Source of the DNA: Microcoleus vaginatus HSN003
Lineage (GTDB): Bacteria; Cyanobacteriota; Cyanobacteriia; Cyanobacteriales; Microcoleaceae
Direction: 5' to 3'
DNA: 64,000 bases
NCBI RefSeq assembly: GCF_022701255.1
Contig: NZ_CP031705.1
Span: 3,472,001-3,536,000, forward strand
Part shown: positions 6,131-58,683 of the stretch, piece after piece
Numbering within the stretch: position 1 is the stretch's first letter
How the letters are laid out: each line of letters begins with the position of its first letter
Made by a program: the position numbers and the translations under genes
The notes under the pieces: generated by a model
What the model saw: the letters and a program-made list of their open reading frames with translations, nothing else
Told to the model about the DNA's origin: nothing
Databases searched by the model: none

Positions 6131-6162
6131 GTTTGTAGTTGCGCGATCGCGCAACTACAAAC
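6131..6162. repeat. 32-nt perfect palindrome centred on a HIP1 site
   Basis: GTTTGTAGTTGCGCGA is followed directly by its exact reverse complement, with the octamer GCGATCGC at the centre. Related GTAGTTGCGC arms form the larger hairpin at 34841-34901. Confidence 0.8.
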
Positions 6163-34409: not shown

Positions 34410-34840
34410 GAAAATCTTAATAGGTAGGTGAACGATTGAGTATCAATCCTTACTTTTTATCATATAATATACAAAAATTTTTTATGATAATCCTTTAATT
34501 AATCTCAACTAACTTTTTTAGTTTCTACCTAAAATTTTTACCATTTTGACGCCGAGTACCCCGTTCTTTATCAAAAATTTAAAAAAGACTCGCTGTTGCC
34601 ACTCTATCTTAAAGATTCCGTAAAAGCATCGATTTTTAGTTGCAAATAAAAGCATTAGCTGTATCGAGAAAATAGCCCGTCAATGTTGCGAAATATAAAG
34701 TTAATTTCCGGGAGAGGGAAAGTTAAGTCTAATTAGTGTTAAATGACAACAAATATTTGCAAATGCTGCTTGGATGAGCCTTCAACCTAAACTAAAAGCT
34801 GCTGGCGATCGCACTTTCTGCCCGATTTTCCACAAAAATG

Positions 34841-34901
34841 GTATGTAGTTGCGCTTCAGCGCTCTTTCCTAAGCTAAGAGCGCTAAAGCGCAACTACATA
34901 C
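34841..34901. repeat. Large hairpin with 26-bp arms
   Basis: GTATGTAGTTGCGCTTCAGC then GCTCTT (34841-34866) pairs with AAGAGCGCTAAAGCGC then AACTACATAC (34876-34901) with one mismatch and a nine-base loop. The right arm belongs to the tandem repeat that follows. The same arm sequence core (GTAGTTGCGC) forms the palindrome at 6131-6162. Confidence 0.85.
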
Positions 34902-35094
34902 CTAAAATTTAACCCCTATTTGGGACAGTTGCGTAAGTCCTAAAAAAGATTCGGGATGATGTGCCAAACTACAGATGTTTCTTGTAAGAGCGCTGAAGCG
35001 CAACTACATACCTAAAATTTAACCCCTATTTGTGACAGTGGCGTAAGTCCTAAAAAAAATTCGGGATGATGTGCCAAACTACAGATGTTTATTG
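34875..35094. repeat. 110-bp direct tandem repeat
   Basis: Two almost identical units start at 34875 and 34985. Each reads TAAGAGCGCTnAAGCGCAAC, then CTAAAATTTAACCCCTATTTG, then GCGTAAGTCCTAAAAAA and ATGATGTGCCAAACTACAGA. Only a handful of single-base differences are visible. There are no open frames of note. Confidence 0.85.
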
Positions 35095-52555: not shown

Positions 52556-53730
52556 TATAGCCTTTCTCAGAAAGATGAGGTATGATGTTACTGACACTCA
52601 CTCGTGAGGGTCAAACAGAGAAGATAAGATCAAATGAACTATAATTACATGGTTGAGTAAAGCCACGCGAAAGCGATACCACACATAATAGCATTTTTTT
52701 GAAAGCACACGATGCTTGACTCACAACACGTTTACTTGTACCAAACTTCATACATTGTTAAAAATGAAAGCTTATTCGATTGATGTTAGGCAAAAAATCC
52801 TTGATACTTATCATACTGAACCCATTTCACAAAAAGCAATAGCTAAGCGTTTTTCTGTAGCCCTGAGTTTTGTACAAAAATTGCTTAAACAATATCGTGA
52901 AACAAAAAACATTACTCCGAGAACTGACCGATGTGGAGTCAAAGGCAAACTGAATGCGGAGCAACTACTCATCTTGGCGGAATTGATTGAAGGAAATAAT
53001 GATGCAACTCTTGAAGAACTCCGTTATTTACTTTATGGGAGAATTGGATTTTCTGTTAGTAGAGCAACAATAGGAAGAATGATAAAACTCTTAGACATTA
53101 CTGTCAAAAAAAACTCTCTTCCCTTCAGGGAAAGGGACAGAGCGAGTTCAAATCCTGCGATGTGAGTTCTGGAAAACAATTAAAGAGATTAGTTTGAAAG
53201 ACTTAATATTCATTGACGAATCGGGAGTTAATTTGGCAATGGTTAGGTTATATGCTAGGTATGCAAAAAGGTGAAAGAGCCAAGGGGTCAAAACCAACTA
53301 AACGTGGCAAAAATGTCTCAATAATTGGAGCAAGGTCAGTCAATGAGATTTTGACATCGGTTAATCTAATAGGCGGAACTGATGCAATTACATTTGAAGC
53401 TTTTATTATCAGAAAACTTGTGCCAAAACTCTGGAAAGGTGCTTGTGTAGTGATGGATAATTGTCCCATTCACTTGGGAGAAGAAGTGAAAAAAGCGATC
53501 GAAAAAACAGGGGCAAAATTAATATACTTATCACCTTATTCACCAGATTTTTCACCAATTGAAAATCTGTGGTCAAAACTTAAAATCATTCTCCGTTCTA
53601 TCAAGACTACTAATTATCAAGAATTAGGAAAAGCCATAGATTTTGCGTTCGGACAAGTTACATCGTCAAATATTTTTAACTGGTTTACACACTGCTGTTA
53701 TTGTACCTCATCTTTTTGAGAAAGGCTATA
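52556..53730 (+). mobile_element. IS630-family element A (inactive)
   Basis: Terminal inverted repeats are TATAGCCTTTCTCAGAAAGA at the left and, at the right, TCTTTTTGAGAAAGGCTATA, a near-exact inverse, with TA at the outermost positions as expected for IS630. The transposase inside is split by two single-base insertions. Left and right host flanks are the DUF6888-like gene and an unassigned stretch before 53934. Confidence 0.8.
52764..53719 (+). pseudogene. IS630-family transposase, two frameshifts
   Basis: The frame starts MKAYSIDVRQKILDTYHTEP at 52764 (helix-turn-helix domain, SFVQKLLKQYRETKNI). It breaks at the A8 run 53106-53113; removing one A continues as KTLFPSGKGTERVQ, then FWKTIKEISLKDLIFIDESGVNLAMVRLYARYA. 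It breaks again at the A5 run near 53265-53269; removing one A continues as KGERAKGSKPTKRGKNVSIIGA to the DDE end (VMDNCPIH, SPYSPDFSPIENLWSK). All three catalytic acidic sites survive. Both lesions are +1 A in homopolymers. Confidence 0.85.
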
Positions 53731-53933: not shown

Positions 53934-54227
53934 ATGCAGCCCATCCGACAAGGCGACGTAATTCTCACCCCAGTACAGCAAATCGAAGGAGAAAAAAAAT
54001 CTCACCTAACTCTCGCCGAAGGTGAAGTCACCGGACATTCTCACCAGATTATTGAGGGACAAGCAGAACTGTACGAAAAAGACGGGACTCTGTACTTGCG
54101 GGTGCTTTCACCGACAGCTTTATTGAGTCACGAAGAACACCATGCGATCGCAATTCCCGAAGGTAATTGGATGGTGCGAATTCAGCGCGAATATGAGCCG
54201 CAAGGTTGGAGGTATGTCGCAGACTAA
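53934..54227 (+). CDS. Conserved hypothetical protein paired with DUF6745
   Basis: The 97-residue protein (MQPIRQGDVILTPVQQIEGE, SHLTLAEGEVTGHSHQIIEGQAELYE, TALLSHEEHHAIAIPEGNWMVRIQREYEP, GWRYVAD) is a beta-rich soluble domain. The histidines in TGHSHQ and EEHHAI could bind a metal or act in catalysis. The name of the family is unknown to me. The DUF6745 gene starts inside its 3' end (14-base overlap, ATG 54214), so the two are translationally coupled and probably act together. Confidence 0.7.
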   Translation: MQPIRQGDVILTPVQQIEGEKKSHLTLAEGEVTGHSHQIIEGQAELYEKDGTLYLRVLSPTALLSHEEHHAIAIPEGNWMVRIQREYEPQGWRYVAD

Positions 54228-55357
54228 GGTTAAAAAACTAACGCCTGAACAAGCAGCTTTGATTCCAGTTTATCGGGAAAAGTGGAGAGCGATATCGCTT
54301 TCCACTTTTCCCGATAAATCGCTCGCAAGCTGCGGAAACAATAAAATCGGCTTACAGTGCGATCCGCAAAAAAGCACCAGCAATCATTTTTGTCGATCGT
54401 CCCTACGAAGCGGCCGATATAATCGTCAGTCGAGTTGATAATCCCAGCAGCCAACTGCGGAGCGAATTCGAGAGAAAACTTCGCAGCCAGCTAGAAAAAC
54501 AACTGCGAGGTTATTTGGGGAGCCAACTAGAAACCGAACTGCAAAGCCAACTGCCAACTCAACGGTCAGCTCGACTTTATACTCAACTGCAAACGCAAAT
54601 GTGGGAGGCGCACCGCAATTATTTAGCTGGCTTCATAGCAAGCCAATTGCCACCGGAAGAGGTGTTCAATGAGCCGAGTCGAGACTTTTACTGGCAAAGA
54701 TTAGGAACAGAACTATTCAGTAATTGCATTCAACCAGTATTGTGGGCTGCTTATGGCAGTTTCTTGGATTTTTGCATTTCGGTTCTTAATTTACCTCATT
54801 CCTACGGCAGAAATTGGATAGTTTTTCAATCGATTGTCCGGGATTGTGGCTTGATTTATCCCTATGACAAAGTTTGCATTGTCTGTGAAAAGCCGAGCGC
54901 ACTTTCCGCAGACAGCAACTACCGCTTGCACGCCGAAGGAAAACCAGCGGTACAGTTTGCCGACGGTGTTTCGATTTACGCCTATCACGGCGTGATTTTG
55001 CCCGAATGGTACGGCAGGCTGCACCCGCACCAGTGGCAGTCTAAGTGGGTGTTGAAGGAACAGAATGCAGAAGTTCGGCGCGCCTTAATTCAGGGAATTA
55101 CTTACGATCGCATTTGTCAAGAATTAGAGGTGACAGAATTAGATAGTTGGCAGGAATACAGTCTATTAAGCATCGAGTTTGACGATGATTTGGATTGGGT
55201 GGGTAATGCAAAGCCAGTTTATTTGTTAAAAATGACTTGTCCAAGTACGGGACACATTCACGCTTTGCGAGTGCCGCCTGATGTGCGATCGGCTCAAGAA
55301 GCAATTCGCTGGGTAAATTGGGGAACCGACCCAGAGGAATTTAGCGTGCAAACTTGA
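54214..55357 (+). pseudogene. DUF6745 protein gene, frameshifted at a 46-nt palindrome
   Basis: ATG 54214 begins MSQTKVKKLTPEQAALIPVYREKWRAISLST and then leaves frame. From CGC 54320 the true frame resumes: RSQAAETIKSAYSAIRKKAPAIIFVDRPYEAADIIVSRVDN. A Q/L-rich repeat segment follows (QLRSEFERKLRSQLEKQLRGYLGSQLETELQSQL), then the DUF6745 core NYRLHAEGKPAVQFADGVSIYAYHGVILPEWYGRLHP and the tail ending EEFSVQT. The frames meet in the palindrome 54271-54316. The function of DUF6745 is unknown; cysteines VCIVCEKPSAL precede the core. The intact equivalent of the junction is seen in the paralogue near 57670 (LSTTPIDAKKATETVKN). Confidence 0.8.
54271..54316. repeat. 46-nt near-perfect palindrome inside DUF6745 gene
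   Basis: TATCGGGAAAAGTGGAGAGC then GAT (54271-54293) is followed directly by its inverse ATCGCTTTCCACTTTTCCCG then ATA (54294-54316), with a single G/T mismatched pair. It coincides exactly with the place where the reading frame is lost. Confidence 0.9.
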
Positions 55358-55375: not shown

Positions 55376-55409
55376 CAGGCCGGCAGGGGTTTAAACCCCT
55401 GCCGGCCTG
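55376..55409. terminator. 34-nt perfect palindrome between the DUF6745 genes
   Basis: CAGGCCGGCAGGGGTTT is followed by its exact inverse. It lies 18 bases after the first DUF6745 stop codon and is GC-rich, with AAATTTTACC after it. It could be a terminator or a mobile-repeat remnant. Confidence 0.55.
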
Positions 55410-56282
55410 AAATTTTACCAAACTCAAGTCAGAATTTATCATGTCAGAACCACAAACAAACCAACCAATTAATCTCAGTAGCTTTGCTGAATGGTGAAAA
55501 CACAAAGATAGTCTTTCAGAAGAGGCAATATATACAGTTGAAGTGCTGTTAAACAAGGCTGGCACTTCTGACTGCAATGAAGCCGATCGGATACTTTCAA
55601 ACCTCACTGAACTGAATCTTAACTGGAAGGAAATTACCGATATTACTCCGCTTTCGGCACTCACTAACCTGACATCTCTGAATCTCGGCAGCAATCAAAT
55701 TACCGATATTACTCCGCTTTCGGCACTCACTAACCTGACATCTCTGAATCTCTACTGCAATCACATTACCGACATCACTGGGCTGTCGGCACTCACTAAC
55801 CTGACCAAACTGGATCTCTCGGAAAATCAAATTACCGACATCACTGGGCTGTCGGCACTCACCAACCTGACACACCTGAATCTCTACCAAAATGAAATTA
55901 CCGACATCACTGGGCTGTCGGCACTCACAAACCTGACCTACCTGAATCTCTACAACAATCAAATTACCGACATCACTGGGCTGTTGGGACTCACCAACCT
56001 GACATACCTGGCTATCAGCGACAATCAAATTATCGATATAACTGGGTTGTCTAGACTCACCAACCTGACATACCTGGCGCTCGGCCAAAATCAAATTATC
56101 GATATAACTGGGCTGTCTGGACTCACCAACCTGACAAAACTGGAACTCGGTTGCAATCAAATTATCGATATAATTCCGCTGTCAACACTCACCAACCTGA
56201 CCGAACTGTGGCTCAGCCAAAATCAAATTACCGACATCACTCCGCTGTCAGGACTCACCAACCTAACCAAATTGAGTCTCTA

Positions 56283-57459
56283 TAGCAATCCTAAATCATT
56301 ATCATGATTGTGATACAATTATATGCAATACTCGATCGTGACCATAAAAAAATGAATAACTTACAACTGCAACAAAAAGATAGGCAAAAAGAAATAGATT
56401 GTTTAGAATCTTTCATTAAAAGCGATATAGATGCCAGAGAACTAAAACGAGCAATAGCTGTAAGGATGGCGCTCTCAGGTAATATCTACCATGAGATCAG
56501 CAAAATTTTAGGTGTAAGTAATTTTTTTATTGGTTATTGGAAAAAACAATTTAAAACCAAAGGCATCGCCGGAATCAAACTAGGACATAAAGGGTCAAAA
56601 GGGTATTTAACAGCTCTACAAAATACTGAAGTAATCGAGTGGTTAAGAAATAAAGAATATGGGAATTTAGATGAGCTAGTTACTTATTTAGAACAAGAAT
56701 TTGGTGTGATATATAAATCAAAACAGAGTTACTATGAACTTTTTGACCGGGCGAAAATTAGTTGGAAAAAAACTCAAAAAATTAATCCTAAATTTGATAA
56801 AGAACTGGTAAAAAAAAAGACGGAAGAAATTAACGATATTTTATTTAAAAACAAGGCTGGTATAGAGTCTGGGGAAATAATAGTATTGTTTTTAGATGAA
56901 TGTCATCTACTTCATGGTGATCTGACTGGTTATGTTTGGGGTCAATCCCAAATCCGAATTGAAGTCCCAATTACCAATGAAAAAGATAGACAAACTTATT
57001 TTGGCGCACTCAATTATCAAAGCAAAGAATTCCATGTTCAGAGCCATCCATCTGGTGATGGAAAATCAACAGTTAAATTCATAAAATACTTACAAGATAA
57101 ATATAAAAATCGCAAGATTATCTTGATTTGGGATGGAGCTAGTTATCATAAATATGGAGAATTTAGAGACTTTTTATTAGAACTCAATGCTGCCAAAGAA
57201 CCTGCTAATTGGTCAATTACTTGTATTTTATTTGCTCCCAATGCTCCCCAACAGAACCCCGTTGAAGATATTTGGTTACAAGCTAAAAACTTTTTAAGAA
57301 AGTATTGGTATTTATGTAGGTCTTTTAAGATTGTCAAGTTTCTGTTTGAGTTTTTTACTAACGAACATAAATTTGATTTCCCCAAAATACGTCAATATAC
57401 TTACACACAGAAAATCATTTAGGATTGCTCTAGATATAGAAAATCATTTAGGATTGCTA
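56283..57459 (+). mobile_element. IS630-family element B, apparently intact, 1177 bp
   Basis: The left end TAGCAATCCTAAATCATT and the right end, read inward, TAGCAATCCTAAATGATT are inverted repeats. TA duplications flank them (56281-56282 and 57460-57461). The right end carries a 20-nt GAAAATCATTTAGGATTGCT twice, 29 bases apart (57410 and 57439). Removing the element plus one TA restores the host reading frame exactly. Confidence 0.92.
56352..57422 (+). CDS. IS630-family transposase (element B)
   Basis: ATG 56352 (MNNLQLQQKDRQKEIDCLESF) gives 356 residues; an upstream ATG at 56304 is possible. It has an N-terminal helix-turn-helix (AIAVRMALSGNIYHEISKILGVSNFFIGYWKKQFK) and a winged linker. 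The DDE catalytic core is VLFLDECHLLHGD, IILIWDGASYHKYG, and NAPQQNPVEDIWLQAK. No internal stops occur, so it may be active. It is AT-richer than its neighbours and differs strongly from the transposase of element A. Confidence 0.9.
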   Translation: MNNLQLQQKDRQKEIDCLESFIKSDIDARELKRAIAVRMALSGNIYHEISKILGVSNFFIGYWKKQFKTKGIAGIKLGHKGSKGYLTALQNTEVIEWLRNKEYGNLDELVTYLEQEFGVIYKSKQSYYELFDRAKISWKKTQKINPKFDKELVKKKTEEINDILFKNKAGIESGEIIVLFLDECHLLHGDLTGYVWGQSQIRIEVPITNEKDRQTYFGALNYQSKEFHVQSHPSGDGKSTVKFIKYLQDKYKNRKIILIWDGASYHKYGEFRDFLLELNAAKEPANWSITCILFAPNAPQQNPVEDIWLQAKNFLRKYWYLCRSFKIVKFLFEFFTNEHKFDFPKIRQYTYTQKII

Positions 57460-58683
57460 TACGACAATCCAATTACCGATATAACTGGGCTGTCAGGACT
57501 CACCAACCTGACAGACCTGAATCTTCAATGCAATCAAATTACCGACATCACTCCGCTGTCAGGACTCACCAACCTGACCATACTGCGTCTCTACAACAAT
57601 CCAATTACTGACTTAAATCTGTCGATCGAACTTACACAGAAGTACCTGACGCTCTCCACGACGCCAATTGATGCTAAAAAAGCTACAGAAACCGTGAAAA
57701 ATATTTATGTAGCTATTGGTCACAAAGCACCCCAAGTTATTGTTTGCAGCAGCCCGCCGGTAGCTGATTTAAATTTTCTCAAACAACTCAAAATTGACTG
57801 TATGTCGCAAAATCAAATATCGCCAAAGGCGACTGGTAATTTAGGATGGGGAAAGTCGTTGCTTAAGGAGTTATTTCAATCGGTGGATGTAGGATTAAGT
57901 CGGAGGTTTTGGAAGGAGCTGTGCCATCAAATAATACTAGAGCCGGATACCGATTGCACACTCGTGTCAGAATTTCAGGAATTGGCAAAAAATTACCCTG
58001 AATCGCGCAAATCTGAGTCTGGATCGTATTCTAACTATCTACAGCCACTAACCCCTACGGATTTGTTGAAGGAAATCCATTTGACTGAATTTGCGATCTC
58101 GAAATTTGGTATCACTCTCGACCAAAAAGCCCAAGAATTACTTGGCTGCAAGCAACAGTTGTTCGAGGATTGCGGGTGGATATTTCCGTTTGAGAACATT
58201 TGCTTAGTTTGCGATCGCCCCCTGCACCTTCGCTTTGACGCTGAAAATCGGCTACACGCTGAAGGAGAACCGGCGATCGCATTTGCCGACGGCTACAGTT
58301 TATACTTTCACCACGGCGTTAAATTACCCGAAAAATACGGAAGAGTACACCCCGATCGGTGGCAACCAGAATGGCTTTTATCTGAAGAAAATGCCGAACT
58401 TCGTCGATTGTTAATTCAGAGAATTGGTTACGATCGCATTTGTCAAGAATTAGCGGTGACAGAATTAGATAGTTGGCAGGAATACACTTTATTAAGCATC
58501 GAGTTTGACGATGATTTTGATAACGAGGGCAATGCAAAGCCAGTTTATTTGTTAAAAATGACTTGTCCGAGCACGGGACACATTCACGCTTTGCGAGTGC
58601 CGCCTGATGTGCGATCGGCTAAAGAAGCAATTCGTTGGGTAAATTGGGATATCGATCCAGAGGAATTTAGCGTGCAAACTTAA

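Follow-up and report, generated by a model that had tools for sequence, protein, structure and literature searches.

Background

Template-switch mutation at quasipalindromes is established in Escherichia coli, based on lacZ reporters and a hot spot in thyA (PMC7202029), and in genes of Saccharomyces cerevisiae template switching between the arms of inverted repeats has been described together with parallel events and inversion of the spacer (PMC8604942). In Pseudomonas fluorescens a mutational hot spot in ntrB was built and broken by silent changes (PMC8526746), and template switching can also create and maintain RNA hairpins (PMC8794818). In the literature surveyed by title no such event in cyanobacteria was met, which is a weak statement of absence.

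Here we describe a gene of the DUF6745 family that loses its reading frame inside a palindrome, in a stretch of 64 kb (the window) belonging to a 6.76-Mb single-contig genome (G000). We propose, with a probability of roughly 0.85, that it was inactivated by a recent loss-of-function mutation arising from template switching at a quasi-palindrome. This is a known kind of mutation, encountered here in an unusually well-resolved natural series.

The broken gene and its palindrome

Read from its ATG at 54214, the DUF6745 ORF encodes YREKWRAISLSTFPDK and leaves its original frame inside the palindrome; one base out of phase the coding sequence resumes as RSQAAETIKSAY and is open up to 55357 (Table 1). 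The DUF6745 domain (PF20530) scores 83.9 bits in this shifted part, against a curated Pfam cut-off of 27, and NCBIfam gave no match for either the shifted part or the open orthologue. The ORF upstream matched no entry in Pfam or NCBIfam, AlphaFold2 applied to the open orthologue with six sequences returned a mean pLDDT of 39, and the term DUF6745 was not found in the literature searched. The frameshift at the palindrome is the sole frame lesion of the window gene. In the codons downstream of it the changes private to G000 comprise 7 synonymous and 10 nonsynonymous ones, compared with 12 and 17 in G028, 5 and 6 in G013, and 6 and 8 in G014; given that the amino-acid changes fall within the range of these sisters the lesion is probably recent, and relaxed selection is not clearly visible in these codons.

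The inverted repeat at 54269-54318 spans 50 nt and consists of two 25-nt arms without a spacer, which are 96% complementary with a single mismatch; an earlier note on this DNA had the mismatch count right and the length, at 46 nt, too short. By score it ranks first among the five short-loop inverted repeats of the window (score at least 14, loop at most 8), and five first-order Markov copies of the window yielded no short-loop inverted repeat of score at least 14. As single-stranded DNA the 81-nt stretch around it folds with -27.3 kcal/mol (z -7.4), a value equalled by 0 of 200 shuffles. The palindrome reported at the frameshift is thus real, being the top-scoring inverted repeat of the window with the DUF6745 frame lost inside it.

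Table 1. Coordinates of the features of the DUF6745 locus within the window
Feature	Position	Strand	Basis or remark
Upstream 97-aa ORF, open, 14-nt overlap with the DUF6745 start	53934..54227	+	
DUF6745 gene, 5' part in the original frame, 74 codons then stop	54214..54438	+	Start common to the 18 other aligned loci
Left arm of the palindrome, putative template	54269..54293	+	Inverted-repeat search
AAAA in the left arm, putative source of the copied tract	54278..54281	+	Alignment with sisters
Right arm of the palindrome	54294..54318	+	Inverted-repeat search; most of the arm already in sister species
TTTT, the rewritten tract, frame-shifting, 4 nt against 3 nt (TGG/CGG) in three sister species	54306..54309	+	
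DUF6745 gene, remainder in the shifted frame, 345 codons open	54320..55357	+	Pfam DUF6745 domain

Other palindromic sequences were also observed. Two more strong inverted repeats of the window lie at 6131-6162, centred on GCGATCGC, and at 34840-34902, and a perfect 34-nt palindrome is found at 55376-55409, 18 nt past the DUF6745 stop, with a shorter 26-nt form after the gene in G013. The motif GCGATCGC, which we take to be HIP1, was rejected as a general seed of hairpins: when 400 kb of each genome was examined, it centred 1 of 23 short-loop inverted repeats of score at least 12 in G000 and 0 of 19 in G028. A dispersed palindromic element was likewise rejected, as a 601-nt query against its own genome recovered, apart from itself and its reverse match at the palindrome, nothing but a single partial match of 82%. 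Viral contigs had 0 exact matches to the 31-nt stem pattern.

The site in sister species and a model for the change

Of 29 genomes searched, G000 included and one genome per species, 22 match the region at E <=0.001. The alignment holds 19 loci fetched from 18 genomes (again with G000), in which the match begins at the upstream gene; G001, G015, G019 and G025, having partial or paralogous matches only, were dropped. The gene is full-length and open, with 378-385 codons, at 7 of these 19 loci (G028, G013, G014, G012, G007, G027 and G022) and broken at the other 12. The nine named loci with an open orthologue come from Microcoleus and other filamentous or uncultured cyanobacteria, and six of the nine are MAGs.

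In three sister species, G028, G013 and G014, the gene is open over 379-380 codons and the site reads CCAC-NGG-CCCG, that is TTTCCAC, then TGG or CGG, then CCCGATAAATC, with LSTGPINRSQAAE as the protein across it. The window reads CCACTTTTCCCG at the same place, the aligned stretch being TTTCCACTTTTCCCGATAAATC. Here TTTT (54306-54309) replaces the three sister bases and pairs without mismatch with AAAA of the left arm (54278-54281), and at the tract the window differs from G028 by two substitutions and one inserted base and by nothing else. The unswitched genes of all three sisters already hold an imperfect inverted repeat, folding with -17.3 to -20.5 kcal/mol, which the derived TTTT improves. 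Furthermore, the right-arm parts CGCTTTCCAC and CCCGATAAA pre-exist in sister species whose gene is open; the suggestion that the right arm had been rewritten as a copy of the left one therefore holds for 54306-54309 and one central base and fails for the remainder of the arm.

The replacement of three bases by four inside an older imperfect palindrome is the signature of template switching. This mechanism, already proposed in the earlier note, is strongly supported by the unswitched state in three sisters and by complement-building changes in several lineages. We posit that the ancestor of the G000 clade would have carried a strong imperfect hairpin spanning roughly codons 19-35 of the DUF6745 gene. 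As this DNA was replicated, the new strand probably folded back on itself or switched to the opposite strand, so that the AAAA of one arm would have been copied as TTTT into the other, displacing three bases, before the strand returned. The outcome of what was presumably a single event would be the near-perfect palindrome and the frameshift, and with them the probable loss of function. Among random 4-nt tracts placed at 54306-54309, 12 of 3000 made an equally good palindrome; the window tract by itself has a chance of about 1 in 250, so that the series of lineages carries the case, and this series was found by inspecting a place where one event was already known.

Changes at or near the site in other lineages

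Among the loci that retain the site, TTTT occurs beyond the window only in G003 and in the group of G021, G024, G017 and G026, and is absent at the site in G023, G006, G012, G007, G027, G022, G011 and the second copy of G027. In G003 the right arm carries TTTT, and a further change at the left arm and the centre has produced a perfect 52-nt palindrome; the net shift is +3 and the frame is open over the site, with the gene deleted further on and a stop after 80 codons. The earlier note had set against its own reading any orthologue with the same palindrome in an open frame, and G003 presents this in part, as its perfect palindrome does stand in an open frame but its gene is deleted downstream.

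In G021, G024 and G026 TTTT is followed by CGC, and in G017 by GGC, opposite a left arm that reads CGAAAAGTGG. All four genes stop after codon 6. They carry a second hairpin within the first 36 nt of the gene (positions 6-36), which grows between loci L015-L018 from 11 pairs in G021 and G024 to 14 pairs in G017 and G026. The second copy of G027 (L026) has the same early stop with only a small GTTT-AAC-AAAC stem, so that the stop predates the growth of the hairpin. The centre of the site reads GCG-AGAT-CGC in G014, G024, G017 and G026 and GCG-ATCT-CGC in G028 only, an exact four-base inversion as predicted for inversion of a spacer. In G011 a perfect 26-nt palindrome lies just downstream of the site and the frame is lost at that palindrome.

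Homopolymer runs are slippage-prone in general, and with just two substitutions and one insertion between the tracts of the window and G028, separate point substitutions combined with slippage in the T run might have sufficed without any template switch. We regard this as quite unlikely in view of the like complement-building changes in G003 (in both arms), in the G021 group (in two hairpins) and in G011, and of the mere 0 to 13 random tracts per 3000 that reached the observed palindromes (12, 13, 1, 2, 0, 0 and 0 for seven tracts at five loci).

The remaining five broken loci (G023, G006, the second copy of G027, G004 and G009) have no ungapped inverted repeat of score at least 9 at the site. 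This measure is blind to the bulged stems of the three sisters as well, and folding alone reveals those. The site folds with -10.5 in G023, where two bases are missing at the hairpin centre, -11.6 in G006, -13.4 in the second copy of G027, -16.2 in G004 (an unrelated insert) and -2.5 in G009. Unrelated DNA, in which AGAAACCGGGTTTTT and its complement make up a long inverted repeat, splits the gene in G004 (L020). L011 (G007), L015 and L016 share a short GC-rich insert, CCCCGCTTCGCTACGG, in this region of the gene, and in L011 it is in frame.

With respect to INDEPENDENCE, a clade uniting G000 and G003 was rejected on rpoB+gyrB+uvrA (7155 columns, AU p 0.0017), a result in favour of TTTT having been gained independently; in this core-gene tree four of five nodes have support values of 48-79, G023 was omitted from uvrA (fragment only), and rho, with no usable gene, was left out. 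Within the first 330 nt of the locus the identity of G003 is 98.5% to G014, 97.6% to G013, 97.3% to G028 and 96.1% to G000, and the TTTT tract may have passed between G003 and G000 by transfer. The locus may indeed move, because the G026 locus (L018) groups with G017, the rpoB of G026 falls in with the G000 clade, and in the three-gene tree the partner of G026 is G024, a discord that reflects either a transferred locus or a mixed assembly.

Strength of the hairpin in open genes

An 85-nt fold at the site gives -9.9 to -14.6 for the four outgroups with open genes, -17.3 to -20.5 for the three sisters, -27.3 for the window and -32.5 for G003. When the 19-codon site of the sisters was recoded synonymously, 0 of 1000 recodings folded equally well in each (z -6.4, -3.5 and -5.8); in G012, G007, G027 and G006 the site is at chance, with 204-284 of 1000 recodings as good (z -0.5 to -0.8), and G022 is intermediate (16 of 1000, z -2.6). 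As the sisters surpass their recodings and the outgroups are at chance, it was apparently within still-open genes of the G000 clade that the imperfect stem grew. Strong as it is, the stem has equals: 784 kb of G028 contain 75 places, the DUF6745 site among them, with a 70-nt window that folds at least equally well.

Based on the changes at the same gene end in several Microcoleus lineages, we propose that this end acts as a mutation hot spot. It would go considerably further to regard it as a maintained one, at which inactivation and occasional in-frame return, of the kind seen in the +3 state of G003, are frequent and predictable and which makes the gene an on/off contingency locus at the level of lineages; we consider this very doubtful. 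If it were true, near-silent changes in the open sister genes would have built the quasi-palindrome behind the later inactivation.

Genome-wide background

We then compared G000 with G028 over 531 kb of aligned sequence (mean identity 94.5%), testing 5270 of 5461 difference clusters for a reverse-complement match whose length differed between the two genomes by at least 4 nt. Such clusters numbered 13 at a length of at least 10 nt, 10 at 12 nt, 5 at 14 nt and 4 at 16 nt, against 13, 8, 6 and 2 for a mirror control, whose matches by eye are mostly simple repeats; at the same lengths a complement control gave 3, 2, 1 and 1 and direct repeats 76, 66, 60 and 54. By count, then, these 531 kb hold no general excess of reverse-complement clusters over the mirror control. 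Among the 10 clusters of at least 12 nt the DUF6745 site alone lies under an ORF of at least 100 codons, and this only in G028 (403 codons, against 98 in G000). The other nine include none under such an ORF in G000, the G028 state being resolved for one of them, and random G000 positions are so covered in 81.5% of cases (n=400). Such changes are thus rare and, as far as this small sample goes, seldom fall in genes.

Decay of the gene or a reversible switch

The next gene, at 55441-58683, codes for an LRR-DUF6745 paralogue, the 3' part of which is the paralogue cited in the earlier note. Two lesions interrupt it, namely a stop codon at 55495-55497 and, at about 56283-57459, an inserted transposase, which has DDE_3 and helix-turn-helix domains and TA at both ends and is presumably an IS630-like element. 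The relative in G013 is a single open frame of more than 640 codons, and in the 6.1 kb examined of G028 only short pieces of it were found. A transposase in two ORFs, one with the HTH_Tnp_IS630 part and the other with the DDE_3 part, was also observed at 52716-53719.

The earlier note had raised the possibility of a reversible on/off switch, a contingency locus whose palindrome is made and unmade at a high rate, which is compatible with an origin by template switching. The intact remainder of the window gene, with its 345 open codons, no second frame lesion and no clear relaxation of selection, would accord with such a switch, as would the sharing of TTTT with G003 and the G021 group and the ability of hairpin changes to restore a frame, illustrated by the net +3 that the left-arm and central change yields in G003. 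However, the arms are now matched except for one pair, and homogenised arms should hold no copy of the former right-arm sequence, so that a templated return would be unavailable, although a short T4 run remains. Furthermore, of the six loci with TTTT five are damaged elsewhere in the gene, a stop and an IS disrupt the neighbouring paralogue, and the joining of quasipalindromes with phase variation is almost absent from the literature searched. Both states were not seen in otherwise intact alleles, all 7 of the 7 full-length open loci being without TTTT, a weak test with one genome per species. We accordingly find the switch unsupported and judge it highly improbable; the findings are better read as decay of a dispensable gene, one often lost in the genus.

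Programmed -1 ribosomal frameshifting at the hairpin would rejoin the two frames and leave the gene unbroken. The strong RNA hairpin (-38.1 kcal/mol), a second frame open from 54263 and the T TTT at 54306-54309, one of the four tetramers of this kind that 54214-54438 contains in the original frame, could be cited for it; yet in that frame the stretch lacks a canonical X XXY YYZ heptamer, the 54306 tetramer lies within the stem instead of ahead of it, and the sister genes need no shift, making this explanation extremely unlikely. Some sequencing methods tend to make errors at hairpins and homopolymers, and the window sequence is that of an assembly, but a sequencing or assembly artefact at the palindrome is hardly credible for a change that replaces bases, beyond altering homopolymer length, and that recurs as TTTT at the same place in five other genomes.

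Comparison with known systems

One end of the DUF6745 gene can be seen in several stages within one free-living bacterial genus: from no stem, to an imperfect stem in an open gene, to a near-perfect stem with a frameshift, and in a further stage to a perfect stem in a gene deleted further on. Such a series offers a natural test of whether a hairpin in a coding region predicts the place and manner of gene loss, and the case cautions against taking palindromes at frameshifts for switches.

As in E. coli, an imperfect inverted repeat is perfected in one clustered change that may include an indel and a frameshift; there mutation rates are obtained with a laboratory reporter, whereas here a natural gene is compared across species from sequence (PMC7202029). 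The homogenised arms, the inverted spacer and the parallel events at one site recall the yeast genes, in which, however, the described outcome is amino-acid replacement, as opposed to the mainly frameshifting outcome in an often-lost gene seen here (PMC8604942). In common with the RNA hairpins, the stem grows by reverse-complement copying, but it lies in a coding region with no indication of an RNA function, and its latest change breaks the frame (PMC8794818). Finally, as in ntrB of P. fluorescens, the presence of a hot spot in a gene may hinge on silent or near-silent differences between relatives, the distinction being that a single-nucleotide change recurs there in selection experiments, whereas the change in the DUF6745 gene is a templated one from three nucleotides to four (PMC8526746).
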